A stretch of DNA of 47,766 bases, taken from Pseudomonadota bacterium (GTDB lineage: Bacteria > Desulfobacterota > Anaeroferrophillalia > Anaeroferrophillales > Tharpellaceae). The stretch's first letter is position 1. Each line of letters begins with the position of its first letter. Below, piece after piece: positions 36,983 through 47,766 of the stretch. Under the pieces are notes generated by a model. The model searched no databases and was not told the DNA's origin. It saw only the letters and a list, made by a program, of their open reading frames with translations. The DNA is taken from the NCBI GenBank assembly GCA_011049115.1, contig DSCM01000038.1, positions 1-47,766 of the forward strand. Reading direction: 5' to 3'. The position numbers were made by a program, and so were the translations under genes.

Positions 36983-38515
36983 ATGGACAGAGTTATAATT
37001 TTCGATACGACTTTAAGGGATGGAGAACAGTCACCAGGGGCCAGCATGGATGTGGAAGAGAAATTGCTGCTGGCCAGACAATTGGAAAAACTTGGGGTTG
37101 ACGTAATTGAAGCCGGTTTCCCGATTGCATCCGAAGGTGATTTCGCCGGGGTCAAACTGGTCAGCGACGAGATTCGCGGTTGTCAGGTCGCTGGGTTGGC
37201 TCGGGCCAACCGGCAGGATATTGACCGGGCCTGGGCGGCTTTACGGGGGGGCGCCGACCCGCGTCTTCATACCTTTATTGCAACCTCACCGATTCATATG
37301 CGCTATAAACTGCAGATGGAAGCCGACGCCGTTCTGGAACAGGCCGTCGCGGCCGTGCGCTATGCCCGGACGATGACCTCAAACATTGAGTTTTCAGCTG
37401 AGGACGCAACTCGCAGTGAACCTGATTTTCTGGTGCGGATCTTTACGGCCGTGATAGAGGCCGGGGCGCGCACCATCAATATTCCGGATACCGTCGGCTA
37501 CGCTGTGCCCCGGGAATATGCGGCGCTGATCAAGGCGGTTCGCGAGCGTTTGCCGCATGGTGGTGACGGGGTGGTGATTTCGGTTCACTGCCACAACGAC
37601 CTCGGTCTGGCCACGGCAAACTCGATTGCCGCTATTGAAGCCGGGGCCCGCCAGGTTGAATGCACGATCAATGGTATCGGCGAGCGGGCCGGAAATTCCT
37701 CATTGGAGGAACTGGTCATGGCTTTGCGCACTCGACCCGATAATCTGGCTTATGAAACCGGAATCGTCACGACCCAGATCTATTCCACCAGTCGTTTGGT
37801 CAGTCAGGTTACCGGTATACGGGTGCAGCCCAACAAGGCGATCGTCGGCGCCAACGCCTTTGCTCATGAAGCCGGCATTCACCAGGACGGGGTTCTTAAA
37901 AACAAGGCGACTTACGAGATCATGACTCCCGAATCAATCGGCCTGCCGCAAAACAGCCTGGTTATGGGCAAACACTCCGGGCGTCACGCTTTTCAGGAAA
38001 AAATCAATGCCCTCGGTTACGAGCTTGACGCGCAGCAGGTGGAGACCGCTTTCTTTGCGTTCAAGAAGCTGGCGGACAAGAAAAAAGAGGTTTTTGACGA
38101 AGATATCGATGCCCTGATCGCTGACGAAATCATCCGGATTCCGTCTTATTTTAAGCTTAATTTTGTTAATATCAACAGCGGTACGGTGGCCATGCCGAGC
38201 GCGACCCTGGAGATTGAGGTCGAGGGTGAGGTCCGGCATGGAGCGGAGTTCGGCGATGGCGCGGTGGACGCGGTTTTTAAGACGATCAAGCGGCTTACCG
38301 ACACCCGGAGCCGTCTCTTGACTTATGAAGTCAAGTCAATTACAGGGGGGACGGACGCTCTCGGCGAGGTTACGGTCCGGATCAGCGAGGACGGCCTGAC
38401 GGTTATGGGGCAGGGAGCTCACACCTGTGTACTGGTTGCCAGCGCGAAAGCTTATCTGAATGCGCTGAACAAGCTTGAATACAAGAAACGTAACCGTCCC
38501 CAGGTGACGGTCTGA
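36983..38515 (+). CDS. leuA: 2-isopropylmalate synthase
   Basis: This 510-residue enzyme condenses acetyl-CoA with 2-oxoisovalerate, the first step to leucine. The active-site FDTTLRDGEQSPGASM is at the N-terminus; HCHNDLGLATANS carries metal-binding histidines, and NGIGERAGNSSLEE completes the catalytic domain. The C-terminal LeuA dimerisation and leucine-feedback domain runs from about 390. GGGAGAGGA precedes ATG. It stands behind copy 3 of the hairpin element. Confidence 0.96.
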   Translation: MDRVIIFDTTLRDGEQSPGASMDVEEKLLLARQLEKLGVDVIEAGFPIASEGDFAGVKLVSDEIRGCQVAGLARANRQDIDRAWAALRGGADPRLHTFIATSPIHMRYKLQMEADAVLEQAVAAVRYARTMTSNIEFSAEDATRSEPDFLVRIFTAVIEAGARTINIPDTVGYAVPREYAALIKAVRERLPHGGDGVVISVHCHNDLGLATANSIAAIEAGARQVECTINGIGERAGNSSLEELVMALRTRPDNLAYETGIVTTQIYSTSRLVSQVTGIRVQPNKAIVGANAFAHEAGIHQDGVLKNKATYEIMTPESIGLPQNSLVMGKHSGRHAFQEKINALGYELDAQQVETAFFAFKKLADKKKEVFDEDIDALIADEIIRIPSYFKLNFVNINSGTVAMPSATLEIEVEGEVRHGAEFGDGAVDAVFKTIKRLTDTRSRLLTYEVKSITGGTDALGEVTVRISEDGLTVMGQGAHTCVLVASAKAYLNALNKLEYKKRNRPQVTV

Positions 38516-38641
38516 AATCCGGAAGAAAACCGATTCTTTGTGAGTTTGTCAGCGGTTGGGATTGCCGACCTTATACAACTGTGTACAGATCCGGTCGTTT
38601 CACGGGCTGCGTCGCATGAGGCGGCCGGATAAGGAGATTTT

Positions 38642-39910
38642 ATGGCTCAGACTATTACCGAAAAGATACTTGCCTTCCATGCCGGACTTGATCGGGTCGA
38701 GGCCGGTCAGCTGATTGAGGCCCGGGTCGATATTGCACTTGCCAACGATGTCACCGCGCCGATTGCCATCGCGGAATTTGAAAAGCTGGGCGTGGAACGG
38801 GTTTTTGCACGGGACCGGGTGATCCTGGTTCCTGATCACTTTACGCCGAACAAAGATATTCAATCGGCCGAACAGGCTAAAATCGTGCGTGATTTTGCCC
38901 GGCGTCAGAACCTGGAACATTATTTTGAGGTCGGCCGCGTGGGCATTGAACATGTTCTGCTGCCGGAACAGGGCCTGGTTCTGCCTGGAGATCTGATTGT
39001 CGGGGCTGATTCCCATACCTGTACCTACGGCGCCCTCGGCGCGTTTGCGACCGGGGTTGGGAGTACTGATCTGGCGGCGGCCATGGCCACCGGCCGGGTC
39101 TGGTTCAAGGTGCCGGAAACCATCAGGGTGATCTACCATGGTCGTCCCGGTCCCTGGGTTGAGGGCAAGGATCTGATTTTATACACGATCGGTCTGCTCA
39201 AGGTGGACGGGGCTCTTTACCAGGCTCTGGAAATGACGGGAGAAGCGATCTCGGCGCTGCCCATGTACGGGCGCATGTCAATGGCCAACATGGCGATTGA
39301 GGCGGGAGCCAAGAACGGCATTATCGCTCCCGATGAAATTACGCTTGATTACGTGCGCCCGCGGGCCAAACGAGATTATACGATTTTTGCCAGCGATGCT
39401 GAAGCGCGTTACGTGCGGACCCTGGAAATCGATACCGCGCTTATTCGGCCGCAGGTTGCCTATCCGCCATTGCCTGATCAAAGTCGTTCGGTGGATCAGG
39501 CGGTTGCCGATAGTCTCACGATTGACCAGGTGGTTATCGGTTCTTGTACCAATGGTCGGATTGAGGATTTTCGGTTGGCCGCAAAAATCCTGCGGGGCCG
39601 CAAAGCAGCCCCTTATTTGCGGCTGTTGATTATTCCGGGGACTCAGGAAGTCTATCGCCAGATGATTCTGGAGGGGCTGACCGAGATTTTTCTCGATGCC
39701 GAGGCGGTGATTTCGCCGCCGACCTGCGGTCCCTGTCTGGGTGGACACATGGGTATCCTGGCGGCCGGAGAACGGGCGGTCGCTACCACCAATCGCAATT
39801 TTGTCGGCCGCATGGGACACCCGCAGAGTGAAGTTTATCTGAGTAACCCGGCTGTGGCCGCGGCCTCCGCCGTGCTCGGTCGCATCGCGGCCCCGGAAGA
39901 GCTCGCGTAG
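38642..39910 (+). CDS. leuC: 3-isopropylmalate dehydratase large subunit
   Basis: This 422-residue [4Fe-4S] aconitase-family protein isomerises 2- to 3-isopropylmalate together with LeuD. Cluster cysteines are in GSCTNGRIEDF and PTCGPCLGGHMG. DSHTCTYGALGAFATGVGSTD is a family signature (given here in part, as SHTCTYGALGAFA). Its length and style match the prokaryotic homoaconitase-like LeuC group rather than the longer enterobacterial form. AAGGAG lies about six bases before ATG. leuD follows after 15 bases. Confidence 0.95.
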   Translation: MAQTITEKILAFHAGLDRVEAGQLIEARVDIALANDVTAPIAIAEFEKLGVERVFARDRVILVPDHFTPNKDIQSAEQAKIVRDFARRQNLEHYFEVGRVGIEHVLLPEQGLVLPGDLIVGADSHTCTYGALGAFATGVGSTDLAAAMATGRVWFKVPETIRVIYHGRPGPWVEGKDLILYTIGLLKVDGALYQALEMTGEAISALPMYGRMSMANMAIEAGAKNGIIAPDEITLDYVRPRAKRDYTIFASDAEARYVRTLEIDTALIRPQVAYPPLPDQSRSVDQAVADSLTIDQVVIGSCTNGRIEDFRLAAKILRGRKAAPYLRLLIIPGTQEVYRQMILEGLTEIFLDAEAVISPPTCGPCLGGHMGILAAGERAVATTNRNFVGRMGHPQSEVYLSNPAVAAASAVLGRIAAPEELA

Positions 39911-39925
39911 AAAGGGAGTTTTCGC

Positions 39926-40426
39926 ATGACTAAAATTCAAGGGAAAGCCTGGAAATTCGGCGATGATGTCGATACCGACGCGATCATTCCGGCCCGTTAT
40001 CTCAATACCTCCGAGCCGGCGGCGTTGGCCCGCCATTGCATGGAAGACGCCGATCCCGGTTTCGCTGCGAAGGTGAAGCCGGGGGATATCATGGTTGCCG
40101 GGAAGAATTTCGGTTGCGGTTCTTCGCGGGAGCACGCTCCAATCGCAATTAAAGCCGCCGGAATAGCCTGTGTCATCGCTCCGACCTTTGCCCGGATTTT
40201 TTATCGCAATGCTTTCAATACCGGACTTTTGATTCTGGAGTCGACGGAAGCGGCAGCGGCTCTGCAGGAGGGGCATGAAATTGTGGTCGATCCGGCGACC
40301 GGAAGGATTGATGATTTGAGCAGCGGCCAAAGTTTTGCGGCCCGGCCGATTCCGGAGTTCATGCGCAAACTGCTGGATGACGGCGGTTTGATGGAATACT
40401 GGCGCAGACGACTGGCGGCAGATTGA
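39926..40426 (+). CDS. leuD: 3-isopropylmalate dehydratase small subunit
   Basis: This 166-residue partner of LeuC forms the swivel domain that completes the active site. GDDVDTDAIIPARYLN opens the protein, and NFGCGSSREHAPIAIKAAG holds the substrate-binding serine and arginine. It is of the short LeuD type that matches the LeuC form next to it. AAAGGGAG precedes ATG. Confidence 0.96.
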   Translation: MTKIQGKAWKFGDDVDTDAIIPARYLNTSEPAALARHCMEDADPGFAAKVKPGDIMVAGKNFGCGSSREHAPIAIKAAGIACVIAPTFARIFYRNAFNTGLLILESTEAAAALQEGHEIVVDPATGRIDDLSSGQSFAARPIPEFMRKLLDDGGLMEYWRRRLAAD

Positions 40427-40531
40427 TCGGCAGATGTTTGGTAGGCGTGCGCTAGTCCTTGCCGGCAGCCTTGAACCATGGGCGGCGCGCTGGTTAAAAT
40501 ATTTTTTAAAAGGAATCAGGCGGAGAGGAAA

Positions 40532-41557
40532 ATGAAGAAAACAGGTTATAATGTGGCCGTGGTCGGGGCCACCGGCGCGGTCGGAAATGAGATGATGGCG
40601 ACTCTGGAAGAGCGGGATTTTCCGGTTGCCGAACTGAAATTGCTGGCTTCGGCCAGATCGGCAGGGAAAACCTATGTGTTTAAAGGGGTTGAATATGCGG
40701 TCGAGGAGCTTACGGAAAACTCCTTTGCCGGAGTTGATATCGCTCTGTTTTCCGCCGGCGGCTCGATCAGTGAAAAATTCGCTCCGGCCGCCGTGCGTAG
40801 CGGCGCGGTAGTTATCGACAATAGCAATGCTTTTCGCATGGAGGCGGATGTGCCCCTGGTGGTCCCTGAAGTAAATTCCTGGGCGATTGCCGATTTCAGG
40901 AACCGGGGAATTATCGCCAATCCGAATTGCTCGACTATTCAGATGGTGGTCGCTTTGAAGCCGATTTATGATGCGGTCGGGATTCGTCGGATCGTGGTCT
41001 CGACTTATCAGGCGGTTTCCGGCACCGGCAAGAAGGCGATCGAAGAGCTGGAAAAACAGGTTCTGGCGCTGTTTAATCAGGAAGCCGATCTCCCGGTTAA
41101 GGTTTATCCGCATCAGATTGCTTTCAACTGTCTGCCTCATATCGATGTCTTTCTTGAAAACGGTTATTCCCGGGAAGAAATGAAAATGGTGCGGGAGACC
41201 AAGAAAATTTTTGGCGATGACAGTATCGGGGTGACCGCGACAGCGGTGCGGGTTCCGGTTTTTTACAGCCATTCCGAATCAATCAATATCGAGACCGATG
41301 AAAAGATCTCTGTGGCGGAGGTTCGGGCATTGATGGAACGGGCGCCGGGGGTGCGCCTGGTTGACGAGCTGGCCCATAATCTTTACCCCATGGCGATTGA
41401 TGCCGCCGGTCAGGATGACACCCTGGTCGGTCGGATTCGGGAGGATGAATCCATTGATAATGGCATCAACTTATGGGTGGTCGCTGACAATATTCGTAAA
41501 GGCGCAGCGTTAAACGCGGTCCAAATCGCGGAAATTCTGATTCGTGAGTATCTGTGA
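40532..41557 (+). CDS. asd: Aspartate-semialdehyde dehydrogenase
   Basis: This 341-residue NADPH enzyme reduces aspartyl phosphate, the branch-point step to lysine, threonine, methionine and diaminopimelate. GATGAVGNEMMATLEER is the nucleotide-binding motif; the catalytic cysteine is in NPNCSTIQMV; SGTGKKAIEELE and the histidine-bearing RVPVFYSHSES follow. ATG 40532 has GGAGAGGA directly ahead; an in-frame ATG at 40478 is upstream of that site and rejected. leuB, often found between leuD and asd, is absent. Confidence 0.95.
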   Translation: MKKTGYNVAVVGATGAVGNEMMATLEERDFPVAELKLLASARSAGKTYVFKGVEYAVEELTENSFAGVDIALFSAGGSISEKFAPAAVRSGAVVIDNSNAFRMEADVPLVVPEVNSWAIADFRNRGIIANPNCSTIQMVVALKPIYDAVGIRRIVVSTYQAVSGTGKKAIEELEKQVLALFNQEADLPVKVYPHQIAFNCLPHIDVFLENGYSREEMKMVRETKKIFGDDSIGVTATAVRVPVFYSHSESINIETDEKISVAEVRALMERAPGVRLVDELAHNLYPMAIDAAGQDDTLVGRIREDESIDNGINLWVVADNIRKGAALNAVQIAEILIREYL

Positions 41558-41961: not shown

Positions 41962-43569
41962 ATGGAAAATAGTTGGCAAAACCACGAAGTAAATATTCTG
42001 GTGGTTGACGATGATGAAGGTATCGTCGAAATTTTGGATGATTATCTTCGGGAATTGGGCTATCGCGTGGTTTGCGCCGCCAATGGGGTTGAAGCTCTGG
42101 AACGGCTTGACGAGAAAGATTTTGATTTGCTCCTGACCGATATCAACATGCCGAAAATGAACGGTATGGAACTGGTCGAACGGATCAAGACCCGGGAAAA
42201 GGCGCCGACCACGATTATGATTACCGCCTATGCGTCAATTCAGTCCGCGGTCGATGCCCTGAAATGCGGAGTTTATGATTATCTGACCAAGCCTTTTGTT
42301 CTGGATGAAGTTAAAAATGCCGTCAGCCGGGCCCTGGAAAAACATTTTCTTCAGCGCGAAAATGTTAATTTGAAGGAAATGATGGCCCTGTATCGGGCCA
42401 GTGAGGTGATCAGTTCCCGTTTTGTTTTTAAGGAAGTGCTTGAAGTTCTCTTTGATTCCGTAGCCTATTTTACCCAGACTGATTTTATCGCCCTTTATCT
42501 TGATGATTCAGGCGGGATTGAAGCCGATTCCGATTTTCGTCTCTGTCGGCGTAAACTGTTTTGTCGTTTGCCGACGGCGGATAGATATTTGCTTAATCTA
42601 TTGCCCAAGCGCTTTCCGGCCGTCGTGGCGGAAAAATATTTTCTTTGCAGCAGCAGCCGGATATTCAGCAAAAACGATGCCTCGCTGAGCGGCTTGTTCA
42701 AGGATGACTCGAACAGGTTTAATTATGAATCGATCATGACGTTTTCGTTGAAGGCCAATAATCGTCTGACCGGTTTTCTGGTCCTGGTTTCCCTCAGTCC
42801 TGAAATTGTTTTTACCGATCGCCTGCGGCGCCTGCTTTACATGCTGGTTTCCAAGGCGGCAGGCGCCATTGAGAACACCCGTCTCTACGACAACCTGCAG
42901 AGGCAATATGTCGAAACTGTCGAAAGTTTCGCCCTGGCCCTGGAGACCAAGGATTCCTATACCCATGGACACTCTCGGCAGGTGGCCTGTTATGCGGCCT
43001 TGATCGCTCGTAAACTGGATTTCTCTTCAGAGAAACTCGCCGCTTTGCAGCAGGCCGCGATTTTGCATGATATCGGTAAAATCGGGGTTTCTGATACCAT
43101 CTTGAATCTCTCCCGGCCCCTGACCGAAGGGGAATTTCAGGAAATCCGGGAACATCCTCGCAAGGGCCGGGATATTCTGGCTCCGATCAGTTCGTTGGCG
43201 ACGGTGACGGCGGTGGTCTATCATCATCATGAACATTGGAACGGCAAAGGTTACCCCGCCGGCCTGAGTGGTTTTGATATTCCCCTGATGGCGCGAATTA
43301 TCGCCGTGGCCGATGCCTTTGACGCCATGACCTCGCAGCGTCCCTATCGTTTGCCGCTGAGCTTGGATGAGGCCTTGGCCGAGTTGAGAAATGGGGCGGG
43401 CCGGCAGTTTGATCCCGAACTGGTCGCCGTGTTTCTCAAACATAAGGATGAAATCGAACTGATGTTGAGTAATCGTCCGCTGTCGGTTCAGCCTTCAGGA
43501 GGAAAAAACTATAGTTGTCCGGCGGCCCCCTCCGCCCATAACCTTTCCGAGACAATTTCTTGCGACTGA
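41962..43569 (+). CDS. Response regulator with HD-GYP domain
   Basis: This 535-residue cytoplasmic protein has a receiver domain (about 11-125) with VVDDDEG acidic residues, the phosphorylation aspartate D60 in LLLTDINMPKMNG, and a K in YLTKPF. A GAF-like middle domain (about 150-305) follows. The C-terminal HD-GYP phosphodiesterase domain (about 315-500) has HDIGKIGVSD near 369, HHHEHWNGKGYPAGL near 421-435 and VADAFDAMTSQRPYR. The metal ligands and the GYP triad are intact, so it should cleave cyclic di-GMP under control of an unlinked kinase. No strong binding site precedes the ATG. It overlaps ampG by ten bases. Confidence 0.93.
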   Translation: MENSWQNHEVNILVVDDDEGIVEILDDYLRELGYRVVCAANGVEALERLDEKDFDLLLTDINMPKMNGMELVERIKTREKAPTTIMITAYASIQSAVDALKCGVYDYLTKPFVLDEVKNAVSRALEKHFLQRENVNLKEMMALYRASEVISSRFVFKEVLEVLFDSVAYFTQTDFIALYLDDSGGIEADSDFRLCRRKLFCRLPTADRYLLNLLPKRFPAVVAEKYFLCSSSRIFSKNDASLSGLFKDDSNRFNYESIMTFSLKANNRLTGFLVLVSLSPEIVFTDRLRRLLYMLVSKAAGAIENTRLYDNLQRQYVETVESFALALETKDSYTHGHSRQVACYAALIARKLDFSSEKLAALQQAAILHDIGKIGVSDTILNLSRPLTEGEFQEIREHPRKGRDILAPISSLATVTAVVYHHHEHWNGKGYPAGLSGFDIPLMARIIAVADAFDAMTSQRPYRLPLSLDEALAELRNGAGRQFDPELVAVFLKHKDEIELMLSNRPLSVQPSGGKNYSCPAAPSAHNLSETISCD

Positions 43570-44798
43570 TCGTCAAGGTGCGGGCTCTTTTTGAACTGGC
43601 TCTGACCGCGCGGATGCTGGTTGCCTTGCTGATGGGTTTTGCCTGCGGTCTGCCCTTGTTGTTGACGATCACGATTCTTCAGGCCTGGATGAAGGAGTCC
43701 GGAGTCGACATTCGCGTGATCGGGCTTTTTTCCCTGGTTGGCCTGCCCTATACCCTGAAATTTCTCTGGGCTCCGGTTCTGGATCGCTATAGTTTGCCGT
43801 TTCTGGGGCGACGCCGAGGCTGGCTTCTGGTCGCGCAGTTTGCTCTGATTCTGACCATCGCCGGTCTGGGACTGGCCAGTCCACTTGAAAGCCCGCACCT
43901 GGTTGCCTTGCTGGCTTGTCTGGTGACCTTTTTTTCTGCTTCACAGGATATTGTCGTCGATGCTTACCGACGAGAAGATCTGAGTGATGCCGAACTGGGG
44001 CTGGGCTCTTCCCTGTATGTCAACGGCTATCGTCTCGGAATGCTTCTGGCCGGCAGCGGCGGCTTGATTCTGGCGGATCATCTTTCTTTTCGCGCGGTTT
44101 ACCTGGTCATGGCCGGATCCCTGCTTCTCGGAGTTCTGACCACCGTTTTCTGCCGGGAACCGCGACATGATGCCGGCCGGCCACGCTCCTTTAGAGAGGC
44201 CGTGCTGGGGCCGTTTGCCGACTATTTCAGTCGTCGGGGGGCCTGGTTGCTGCTGGCCTTTATTCTTTTTTATAAAATCGGCGATCAGATGGCTTCCAGT
44301 CTGACCATGCCGTTTTATCTGGAGCTGGGTTTCAGTAAAACCGAGATCGGGACGGTGGTCAAACTTTTCGGTTTCTGGGCGACCCTGGCCGGTGGCCTGG
44401 TCGGTGGGCTGACCCTGTTACAAATCGGGATTTATCGGGCTCTGTGGTGGTTTGGTCTGTTGCAGGCTCTTTCGACGGCCGGGTTTGTGCTTCTCGCTCA
44501 GGCCGGAGGCGGACTTTGTCTTCTGACCGGGGTGATCGCTTTTGAAAACCTGAGTGCGGGCATGGGCACGGCGGCCTATGTCGCCTACATGGCGACGCTG
44601 ACCAATAAAAAATTTACCGCGACGCAATATGCCCTGCTTTCCAGTTTGATGGGGATTCCCAGGGTTCTGGCCGCGGCTCCGACCGGCTATCTGGTCGCCG
44701 CCGGGGGCTGGTCTTTCTTTTTTATCTTCTGTACGGCGGCGGCCTTGCCCGGCCTGCTGCTGCTTTACTGGATTCGGCCCGATAAGCTGGAGCTGTAA
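43560..44798 (+). CDS. ampG: AmpG-like muropeptide transporter (MFS)
   Basis: This 412-residue protein has about 12-14 membrane spans and the AmpG-family segments MGFACGLPLLL, IGLFSLVGLPYTLKFLWAP and SQDIVVDAYR. AmpG imports anhydro-muropeptides from peptidoglycan turnover across the inner membrane. The TTG at 43560 overlaps the preceding gene by ten bases; GTG at 43578 is another possible start, and neither has a strong binding site. Next to it come asnB and a ligase-like gene, which may point to peptide-amide chemistry. Substrate is inferred by family only. Confidence 0.87.
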   Translation: MRLIVKVRALFELALTARMLVALLMGFACGLPLLLTITILQAWMKESGVDIRVIGLFSLVGLPYTLKFLWAPVLDRYSLPFLGRRRGWLLVAQFALILTIAGLGLASPLESPHLVALLACLVTFFSASQDIVVDAYRREDLSDAELGLGSSLYVNGYRLGMLLAGSGGLILADHLSFRAVYLVMAGSLLLGVLTTVFCREPRHDAGRPRSFREAVLGPFADYFSRRGAWLLLAFILFYKIGDQMASSLTMPFYLELGFSKTEIGTVVKLFGFWATLAGGLVGGLTLLQIGIYRALWWFGLLQALSTAGFVLLAQAGGGLCLLTGVIAFENLSAGMGTAAYVAYMATLTNKKFTATQYALLSSLMGIPRVLAAAPTGYLVAAGGWSFFFIFCTAAALPGLLLLYWIRPDKLEL

Positions 44799-44820
44799 CT
44801 TTTGCGAGTAGATGAGTGGT

Positions 44821-46728
44821 ATGTGTGGTATTGCGGGAATCATCTCAGCCCGACTGGCGGCCTCTGATCTGGAGTATAAACTGCGTCGGATGGGGGACTG
44901 TCAGAGTCATCGCGGGCCGGATGACGAGCGGGTCGAGGTCTATCAAAACGGCGTTCGGCGGGTGGGTTTTGGTTTTGTCCGGCTGGCGATTCTCGATCTG
45001 GAAACCGGAATGCAGCCGGTGTTTTCTCCGGTTGACCGGTCGGCCCTGATCTGCAACGGCCAGCTCTATAATTATCTTGAACTGAAAGCCGGGCTGGGCG
45101 GGGTCGAATGGCTGACGCGAGGGGATGCGGAAGTCGCCCTGCAAATGTTCCGCCACCATTCTCCAGCCGTCGCCCTGCAAGCGTTCAACGGTATGTACGC
45201 TGGCGCTTTCTTCAGTCCGCGGGAAAATAAGGTGATTCTCTTTCGGGATCGTTTCGGCATCAAGCCGTTGTACTACCGAGAGTTCGCAGGTGATTTTTAC
45301 TTTGCCTCCGAGATCAAGCCTCTGCTGGCGGTGACCGATCGGGCCCGCCTTCGGCAGGAGTTGTTTCCCACCCTTTTCACCTATCGCTATCTTCCCGGTG
45401 AAGAGACGATTTTCAGCGGGATCAAAAGATTGCCGCCGGGTTACTTGCTGACCTATGATCTTGAACACGGTCATTATGAAATAAGTTCCTATTGGCAGAA
45501 TCTTTTTCCCGAAAAAGATTCTGCGCTTTCCCGGGCCGATGCCGAGGCTGAACTGTTTGAACTTTTTCAGGATGCGGTGCGGCTGCGGTTACGCTCCGAT
45601 GTCGAGGTGGGCAGTTTTTTGAGCGGCGGGATTGATTCCTGTGCGGTGGCTGCGGCCGCCGCCGGCGGTGGGCGAGGTTTGTCGCTGTTCACGATTGCTT
45701 TTTCCGAACCTCAGTACAATGAACTGCCGCTGGTCGAGGAGTTTCTCAAGGCTGCGGCGGGTCGTTTCGCGGGCAGCAAGCATTATGTTGATTTCTGTTA
45801 TCCGGATCAGCTGGCCGAACTGCCGGCCCTGCTGCGGGCCTTGGAGGAACCCATTTTTCTTGGAGCGGTGTTGCCTACCGACCAGGTCTGTCGCCTGGCG
45901 GCGCAAAAGGTCAAGACGGTGCTCACGGGTGAGGGGGCCGACGAGATCTTTGCCGGCTATCGTAAATTCTTACTGGAAATGGCGGCTTTCGAGTATTCTC
46001 AGCTCGGGGTTTCCGGGCGCCGGGAGCTGGTTCATCTTTATCCTGAACTGCCGGATTATCTGGCGGTGCGGGCCGATGATCCGCTGCGCCGTTACATTCA
46101 GAGCGAGGCCCTTTTCAGCGAAGCGGAACTGGCGCGTCTTCTCGGTTATCAGAATAAATCCCGGAAACCAAGGGTGGCCGGTCTTGTTTCTCTGGGGGCG
46201 GCGCCCAGGCTTGACGGCCACGAACATCCTCTGCACGCGGCCCTGGCCGTCGAGACTCGTTGCCGCCTGCCGGACTACGTTATTTTACGTCTTGATAAGC
46301 TGGCAATGCGCCATTCTCTGGAAACGCGGACCCCTTTTCTAGATTATCGTCTGGCCGAGTTTGCCGCCCGGCTGCCGCCTGAGTACAAGATCGACCTGTC
46401 TGGAAACCGGGGAAAGGATATCTGTCGCCGGGCTTTTTCCCGTTTTGGACTGCTGGATGAAAAGAGCGCCTGGCGGCGTAAACAGCCGTTTACCAGTCCG
46501 CTGGCCGTTTGGTTGGCCGATCGCAGGCTGTGGCCGGAGGTGGTTCGGGAAGCTTTGGCCGGAGAGATGATCAGGCGTCATGGAATTTTAAATCCGGCCA
46601 TGGTCAGGGAGCTGACGGAACAGGTCACCAGCGCCGGCGTTGGTCCGGCGACCCTGGTTTCGGGGGCGGATCGTCTTTTTGCGGTGCTGGTTTTTACTTT
46701 ATGGTTTGAGGAGTTCGGCCGTGAATGA
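44821..46728 (+). CDS. asnB: Glutamine-dependent asparagine synthetase-like amidotransferase
   Basis: This 635-residue protein has an N-terminal class II glutaminase domain: C2 is exposed after removal of Met (MCGIAGII), with RLAILDLE, ICNGQLYNY and RGDAEVALQ completing the site. The synthetase domain has the PP-motif SGGIDS near 269 and TGEGADEIFAGY near 370. ATG 44821 is chosen over ATG 44812 because the nucleophile must be residue 2. The family includes asparagine makers and enzymes that amidate other acids, such as peptidoglycan diaminopimelate. The AmpG and ligase-like neighbours keep that option open. Its end overlaps the next gene by eight bases. Confidence 0.9.
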   Translation: MCGIAGIISARLAASDLEYKLRRMGDCQSHRGPDDERVEVYQNGVRRVGFGFVRLAILDLETGMQPVFSPVDRSALICNGQLYNYLELKAGLGGVEWLTRGDAEVALQMFRHHSPAVALQAFNGMYAGAFFSPRENKVILFRDRFGIKPLYYREFAGDFYFASEIKPLLAVTDRARLRQELFPTLFTYRYLPGEETIFSGIKRLPPGYLLTYDLEHGHYEISSYWQNLFPEKDSALSRADAEAELFELFQDAVRLRLRSDVEVGSFLSGGIDSCAVAAAAAGGGRGLSLFTIAFSEPQYNELPLVEEFLKAAAGRFAGSKHYVDFCYPDQLAELPALLRALEEPIFLGAVLPTDQVCRLAAQKVKTVLTGEGADEIFAGYRKFLLEMAAFEYSQLGVSGRRELVHLYPELPDYLAVRADDPLRRYIQSEALFSEAELARLLGYQNKSRKPRVAGLVSLGAAPRLDGHEHPLHAALAVETRCRLPDYVILRLDKLAMRHSLETRTPFLDYRLAEFAARLPPEYKIDLSGNRGKDICRRAFSRFGLLDEKSAWRRKQPFTSPLAVWLADRRLWPEVVREALAGEMIRRHGILNPAMVRELTEQVTSAGVGPATLVSGADRLFAVLVFTLWFEEFGRE

Positions 46729-47662
46729 ACAGGGAAAGATAAGACTTGAAAGCCTGGTCTCTGCTTTTACTACGGAACTGCGCAAAGTGCTGGTGGAGAA
46801 AATTTCCCCCGGGCCTTTGACCTATGGATTTGAGTATGAATTGCTGCCTACGCGGCGTCTGACTCCGAAGGGGATCGACAAAATCGCCCAATGTTTACTG
46901 CGCTTGGGTTACCGGCCCCAGAAGGAGGGTGAATTTCTGGCTCTCAACGGGCTGCATCTTACCTTTGAGCCGGGCGGGCAGCTGGAGTATGGTTCTCCTC
47001 CTCTTTTTGCCTTCGATGACGAGGCCCTGGCTGCCCTGTTGGAACAGCTTCGGGAAACCAATCGCTGCATAGAGGCGTTCTGCGGGGTTAAATATCGAGG
47101 TGTCGCCTATCTTCCCGGTCGGGAAACGGCGAAGCTTTGCCTTGTCAGCCGGCGTTATTTGGATATGCATGCCCTGTTTTCCGACAATGGCGGGCGGGGC
47201 CGGGAAATGATGAAGGGGACGGCCTCGATACATTTTCATGTCAGGATTCGTTGTCTGGCGGAGATGTTGCCTTTATACCGGCTCCTGGCGGAGCTTGCGG
47301 CCGAGGCCCCATTCGGGATGGGACCGGAACGGCGAAAAATCTGGGACGCGACCGAAGAAAGTCGTTGCGGCCTGCCACCGCTGAACCTCTGTGCGAATGA
47401 GAATGAGCTGCTGGCCGGGATGGTCAGGCACGCCCTTAAGGCTCTGGACCTGCGTTATCGGCAGCCTTTTTTTATGATGAGAAATATTACCTTTGCCGAT
47501 TTTTTGCTTCACCTGACAACGATTTTCACCGATGTCAGGCTCAATCTCAAAGGTCCCACCTTGGAACTGCGAACCCCAGACAGCCTGCCGCCGGAGCATT
47601 TTTCAGCTCTCTGGCGGCGCTTTGTCATGGTCGTGGAAAGAAATATGACAACCGAAATTTGA
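46721..47662 (+). CDS. Compact glutamate-cysteine-ligase-like (GCS2 family) protein
   Basis: This 313-residue protein starts at GTG 46721 (GAGGAG seven bases ahead). TYGFEYELLP, LTFEPGGQLEYGSPP (about 79-93), RYLDMHALF with EMMKGTASIHFHV, KIWDATEESRCGLPP and FLLHLTTIFTDVRL correspond in order to the motifs of the plant/alphaproteobacterial-type glutamate-cysteine ligase and EgtA family. It is well short of the usual 420-500 residues of that group. The expected acid residues for ATP-Mg binding are present. The substrate cannot be read from sequence; a gamma-glutamyl ligase on an amine or thiol is the likely chemistry. It is translationally coupled to asnB. Confidence 0.75.
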   Translation: MNEQGKIRLESLVSAFTTELRKVLVEKISPGPLTYGFEYELLPTRRLTPKGIDKIAQCLLRLGYRPQKEGEFLALNGLHLTFEPGGQLEYGSPPLFAFDDEALAALLEQLRETNRCIEAFCGVKYRGVAYLPGRETAKLCLVSRRYLDMHALFSDNGGRGREMMKGTASIHFHVRIRCLAEMLPLYRLLAELAAEAPFGMGPERRKIWDATEESRCGLPPLNLCANENELLAGMVRHALKALDLRYRQPFFMMRNITFADFLLHLTTIFTDVRLNLKGPTLELRTPDSLPPEHFSALWRRFVMVVERNMTTEI

Positions 47663-47766
47663 CCAGTTGTGATTATCGAAAATTGATCACCCTGATAGCA
47701 AGATAAAGTTAGGCACTGATGTTCATGGTTAAATTTTAAGTTTGCTTATTGGTAATGTCTTTCCAG
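47663..47766. other. AT-rich end of the window
   Basis: No gene or terminator is recognised in these 104 bases. The composition changes to AT-rich directly after the ligase-like gene, which suggests that the transcription unit ends near here. Confidence 0.4.

Follow-up and report, generated by a model that had tools for sequence, protein, structure and literature searches.

A conserved pair of an AsnB-like amidotransferase and a short GCS2-family ligase probably makes an amide-capped relative of glutathione in anaerobic sediment bacteria

Introduction

Among the described systems closest to the locus reported here is the two-enzyme AsnO-Ngg pathway, where AsnO converts the dipeptide N-acetylglutaminylglutamine (NAGG) into its amide, NAGGN (PMC8070244). 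The locus itself lies in a 47,766-nt stretch of DNA, contig DSCM01000038.1 of assembly GCA_011049115.1, which was analysed whole and is called the window below; it is an entire contig of a 2.64 Mb genome that is 97% complete. It consists of a gene for an AsnB-like amidotransferase (asnB) followed by one for a short gamma-glutamyl ligase of the GCS2 family. As in AsnO-Ngg, the genes are adjacent, and a peptide-bond-forming enzyme is combined with an enzyme of the AsnB type, which amidates a dipeptide carboxylate with glutamine nitrogen in AsnO-Ngg and would do so here. In contrast, Ngg is not a GCS2 ligase, NAGGN is a non-thiol osmolyte, and the AsnB of the window falls below the cut-off of the AsnO model TIGR03104 (262 against 570 bits).

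Plant/alphaproteobacterial-type glutamate-cysteine ligase (GCL; 2gwc) and EgtA share their fold and conserved motifs with the short ligase, which, at 313 residues rather than about 450, lacks the C-terminal part of plant GCL and lies far under the curated cut-offs. An amide-capped, gamma-glutamyl-cysteine-type thiol of anaerobes has been described in the form of the glutathione amide of Chromatiaceae (PMC8877833); however, this compound requires glutathione and hence GshB, which is not recognisable in the genome of the window, and no amidation gene is named in the open-licence papers that we consulted. Haloarchaea possess gamma-glutamylcysteine and a GCS2-family ligase, GshA, without GshB, although the review of haloarchaeal thiols makes no mention of an asparagine synthetase partner (PMC7278568). 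Within open-licence papers, we found neither such an asnB/GCS2 pair nor an AsnB-type enzyme in thiol biosynthesis, and an earlier description is possible.

Results and discussion

The asnB-like gene and the short GCS2 gene are a strictly conserved unit, to which the upstream ampG does not belong. At least three lineages of anaerobic sediment bacteria have this inseparable pair, whose two products probably cooperate in making a so far undescribed glutathione relative with an amide cap. A ligase search of public genomes, most of those compared being metagenome-assembled genomes (MAGs), returned 30 loci from Tharpella-type bacteria (Candidatus Tharpella MAGs are the nearest named relatives of the window organism), Desulfobacterales and Fermentibacterota (Sabulitectum), while a plasmid collection searched with the ligase gave no match. 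Partner genes were located in 38 distinct loci, 36 of them with sufficient upstream DNA, and at 35 of these 36 the same AsnB type lies directly upstream of the ligase on the same strand, with a gap of -4 to 95 nt. At the lone exception (L044:7938-8930), asnB is missing beside the short GCS2 gene, which is an additional copy: the same genome, PL23a_bin.99, carries the pair at L047. The ligase is present in 23 of 42 Fermentibacterota genomes, and the AsnB adjoins it in all 14 additionally fetched loci of this group. At one Fermentibacterota locus (L180:8284-10189, genome G442), the asnB frame is in three pieces next to an intact ligase, through sequencing error or decay.

Within the phylum of the window organism, the ligase occurs in 16 of 395 genomes and this AsnB type in the identical 16 (680-1119 bits; best score elsewhere 411). 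Twelve of the 16 belong to one family, and the count therefore overstates independence; the pair is also found in two further families and in a second phylum. In G020, a genome of the window's own family without a ligase match, the AsnB type is present and cut at a contig edge. In a phylogenetic tree the AsnB-like proteins form one clade (support 100/100) on a long stem. Since the association of asnB and GCS2 is conserved in relatives, chance is ruled out.

The original prediction, made from the letters of the window alone, had described ampG, the AsnB-type gene and a 313-residue GCS2 gene as tightly coupled. Indeed, the frames and coordinates were confirmed (Table 1), as were the 22 nt between the ampG stop and the asnB start and the 8-nt overlap of asnB with the ligase gene, which suggests translational coupling of these two. 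The prediction would have fallen had relatives lacked a conserved neighbourhood; instead, the pair proved to be real.

Table 1. Coordinates of the pair, its surroundings in the window, and related loci (positions without a locus prefix refer to the window).
Feature	Position (strand)	Basis or remark
AsnB-like glutamine-dependent amidotransferase, 635 aa	44821..46728 (+)	TIGR01536, catalytic residues, own clade tied to short GCS2
Short GCS2-family gamma-glutamyl ligase, 313 aa, predicted glutamate-cysteine-ligase type	46721..47662 (+)	GTG start; Pfam GCS2, profiles, fold
Ribosome-binding site GAGGAG, within asnB	46708..46713 (+)	7 nt 5' of the GCS2 GTG; sequence
GCS2 start / asnB stop overlap, 8 nt, GTGAATGA	46721..46728 (+)	Sequence
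Window end	47663..47766 (+)	104 nt left past the GCS2 stop; grxC (glutaredoxin 3) at the matching spot in relatives
ampG, AmpG-family major facilitator superfamily permease	43560..44798 (+)	TIGR00901, 494 bits (cut-off 350); neighbour, outside the conserved unit
HD-GYP response regulator, 5' of ampG	41962..43569 (+)	Pfam Response_reg and HD_5; neighbour only
leuA, leuC, leuD (leucine biosynthesis) and asd, 5' of the response regulator	36983..41557	Named by inspection only
ThiS/MoaD-like and ThiF-type genes in relatives	L025:12897-16835, L026:3824-7705, L027:2791-6666, L017:4126-6691	

The ligase

Family, fold and the ExE and EPGGQ motifs predict that the ligase is of the glutamate-cysteine-ligase type within the GCS2 superfamily. 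It scores 35.7 bits against Pfam GCS2 (cut-off 21), and all 33 aligned ligases match the EgtA and plant GCL models, with only one also matching YbdK, weakly. The window ligase remains below both equivalog cut-offs, at 48.3 of 370.8 bits for EgtA (TIGR03444) and 36.5 of 463 bits for plant GCL (TIGR01436). Plant GCL is recovered from the PDB by the ligase profile at E ~1e-18, and an AlphaFold (AF2) model (pLDDT 94) has plant GCL 2gwc as its best fold match (E 6e-13, TMq 0.71), followed by YbdK and then E. coli GCS. The motifs GFExE, EPGGQxE, RY, MM.T, IW..T, HxTT.F..R and E.R vary little or not at all, with E38, E40, E83, Q87 and E89 among the invariant residues.

The amidotransferase and its substrate

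The AsnB-like protein passes Pfam Asn_synthase and Pfam GATase_7, and reaches 354 bits against a cut-off of 267 for TIGR01536, a broad model that includes enzymes with other substrates. All 25 members match the AsnO model at E <= 1e-40. The frame is open from 44812, and its start was assigned to the ATG at 44821 because the N-terminal nucleophile (Ntn) cysteine needs the MCG start that this gives. For comparison we used E. coli AsnB, with the residue roles (glutaminase, PP-loop, Glu76, Arg325) that we take it to have. Its Cys1, Arg49, Asn74 and Asp98 (glutaminase) are kept as C2, R54, N79 and D102, and its SGG.DS PP-loop, Glu348 and Lys449 as SGGIDS, E371 and K554; hence, use of glutamine nitrogen and adenylation of a carboxylate are predicted. 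The position of Arg325, at the aspartate site, is an invariant glycine. As a marker for loss of aspartate use this was set aside as weak and not diagnostic, since other long AsnB proteins also lack the arginine.

The retention of all four glutaminase residues, pointing to ammonia as the nitrogen source, also makes it unlikely that the ligase supplies gamma-Glu-Cys to which the AsnB-like enzyme adds glycine or another, unknown amine, yielding glutathione without GshB or a new tripeptide. Such chemistry would have parallels, since non-ammonia nucleophiles are used within the AsnB fold by lasso cyclases, beta-lactam synthetase and carbapenam synthetase, the last two of which are among the fold matches of the AsnB-like protein (together with TsnB9 and asparagine synthetases), and it would agree with the lack of a recognisable gshB in the window's genome.

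The equal alternative put forward in the original prediction, that an ordinary asparagine synthetase adjoins a ligase unrelated to it, is now very improbable. The perfect co-occurrence across the 395 genomes, the coupling with the ligase and the separate AsnB clade speak against it, even though the protein passes TIGR01536 and is the sole full-length AsnB in its genome. Furthermore, asparaginyl-tRNA synthetase (AsnRS) was found above cut-off in none of 22 genomes of the window's order, while GatB is present in 21 of them, including that of the window. Asn-tRNA is therefore made from Asp-tRNA, and free asparagine is not needed for it. Hence, asparagine supply does not explain this AsnB, and the enzyme, though the only full-length one of its kind in the genome, is free for another substrate.

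Thiol genes in carrier genomes

The original prediction had also proposed a genome search for a second asnB and a gshB, and neither is recognisable in the window's genome. Across 25 carrier genomes, no protein exceeds the TIGR01380 cut-off for GshB; 22 of them have no full-length strong GshB-like match and seven Fermentibacterota genomes no match whatever. Each of the other three carriers has a GshB-like protein that scores close to curated cut-offs, on one side or the other; that of G151 passes PRK05246. In these three the product may be glutathione amide. That the AsnB-like enzyme generally amidates glutathione, formed by the short GCS2 together with a gshB elsewhere in the genome, is, however, quite unlikely given the 22 carriers, notwithstanding these three and the precedent of glutathione amide in purple sulfur bacteria (PMC8877833). 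Matches to GSH-S_ATP were rejected as gshB candidates, being a GAK-system ATP-grasp protein in the window's genome and a RimK-type protein in G009. The former (L091:263-2205; TIGR04356, 435 bits) has an adjoining open reading frame. BshC was found in none of 22 genomes, which gives no sign of a bacillithiol route.

Glutaredoxin and other neighbours

At 22 of 30 loci outside Fermentibacterota, the ligase is followed by grxC, with one intervening gene in two genomes. Its product is glutaredoxin 3, a dithiol CPYC protein above the TIGR02181 cut-off. In the window's family, 12 of 16 genomes have a GrxC above cut-off, each as a single copy and solely next to the ligase, while none of six genomes of the sister family does; the latter family lacks the ligase as well and has only UXX-star-like proteins. 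Two other families, represented by four well-completed genomes, show the arrangement too. The genome of the window has a single GrxC, at the start of contig C19 (C19:265-504; L106:256-510), beyond which lie convergent, minus-strand BatD and BatA/B-type genes (L106:1-4143) in the order seen after grxC in relatives. With grxC at its first bases and these genes behind it, C19 very probably continues the window. In four Desulfobacterales, a glyoxalase-II-like (GloB-like) gene lies upstream. As a separate observation, sister-family genomes (G001:C14, G002:C62, G003:C138, G005:C53) contain glutaredoxin-like frames with an in-frame TGA, which are probably UXX-star selenoproteins.

The glutaredoxin and glyoxalase-II-like partners therefore indicate a glutathione-like thiol, and together with the ligase models they favour the small-thiol substrate that the original prediction had suggested for the ligase. 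They also argue, as does the likeness of the ligase to glutamate-cysteine ligases, against a non-thiol dipeptide-amide osmolyte of the NAGGN kind for marine salinity. The two-step logic shared with the NAGGN pathway and the marine or vent sediments from which several named carriers come are consistent with an osmolyte, which nonetheless seems rather unlikely.

The role of ampG has to be seen in the same light. The original prediction had entertained a peptidoglycan or muropeptide link, and amidation of meso-diaminopimelate of the LtsA kind would fit the ampG adjacent in the window and in some relatives. Yet most relatives have no ampG upstream of asnB, there is no second cell-wall gene that recurs, and it is glutaredoxin and glyoxalase-II-like genes that are found there instead, so that this function is extremely unlikely. 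Membership of ampG, the HD-GYP regulator and a ThiS-ThiF pair in the unit was rejected, since their conservation is too narrow; the regulator and, in relatives, the ThiS-ThiF pair share the neighbourhood only within the window's family. This pair, absent from the window, comprises a ThiS/MoaD-like protein ending in GGG and a ThiF-type activating enzyme, and is flanked by the HD-GYP regulator on one side and ampG or asnB on the other. Elsewhere, two related genomes encode an enolase-C-domain protein, about 505 aa long, immediately 5' of their asnB-ligase-grxC operon (L122:3363-4877, L123:2496-4019), and in one Fermentibacterota branch (L050-L056, L193) a glutaminyl-tRNA synthetase gene lies 3' of the ligase.

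A candidate pathway

We propose, at a probability of about 0.5, that the pair makes amide-capped gamma-glutamyl-cysteine, a minimal glutathione substitute. The short GCS2 would use ATP to phosphorylate the gamma-carboxylate of glutamate and would then join the activated glutamate to cysteine, giving gamma-Glu-Cys. The N-terminal Ntn domain of the AsnB-like enzyme would hydrolyse glutamine and channel the ammonia to the C-terminal PP-loop domain, where the free cysteine carboxylate of gamma-Glu-Cys would be adenylated and replaced by the amide, yielding gamma-Glu-Cys-NH2. For this second step, the amidation of NAGG by AsnO is a direct precedent. Glutathione, mycothiol and bacillithiol all have their cysteine carboxylate capped as an amide, which makes metal-catalysed oxidation slower. 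The resulting gamma-Glu-Cys-NH2 would serve the dithiol glutaredoxin encoded nearby and, in some Desulfobacterales, the glyoxalase-II-like hydrolase as well. Of the separate elements, a thiol rather than another peptide is the likely product and, given a thiol, amidation by ammonia is probable. The fuller proposal is that gamma-glutamyl-cysteine amide is a new low-molecular-weight thiol of Tharpella-type bacteria, Desulfobacterales and Fermentibacterota, that glutathione synthetase is replaced in its synthesis by an AsnB-type amidotransferase, and that a dedicated glutaredoxin reads the product; it is offered tentatively, the balance falling just short of even.

Several points weigh against amide-capped gamma-glutamyl-cysteine as the product. 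We infer both substrates, the order of the steps and the product from genes, families and folds. The AsnB-like protein is over the generic asparagine synthase cut-off, and Glu76, the glutamine-pocket residue of E. coli AsnB, is a glutamine in it. Fermentibacterota and some Desulfobacterales have no glutaredoxin gene next to the pair, and in the three carriers with a GshB-like protein glutathione itself is possible. Finally, a lysine at position -3 of ScGrx7 binds the glycine carboxylate of glutathione (PMC7138851), and its absence from all adjacent GrxC proteins was considered as a sign that the thiol has no glycine carboxylate. This was dropped, and the feature lends the proposal no help, as the lysine is likewise absent from the GrxC of Acinetobacter, Comamonadaceae and Pseudomonas, which are glutathione users.

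For many anaerobic bacteria, the principal small thiols have yet to be identified, and gamma-Glu-Cys amide, if the proposal is true, would add to a short list. The operon would then be a genetic marker predicting which organisms hold the thiol. It would also mean that an AsnB-type enzyme can perform the capping step otherwise carried out by glutathione synthetase, and would suggest which type of enzyme may amidate glutathione in purple sulfur bacteria.

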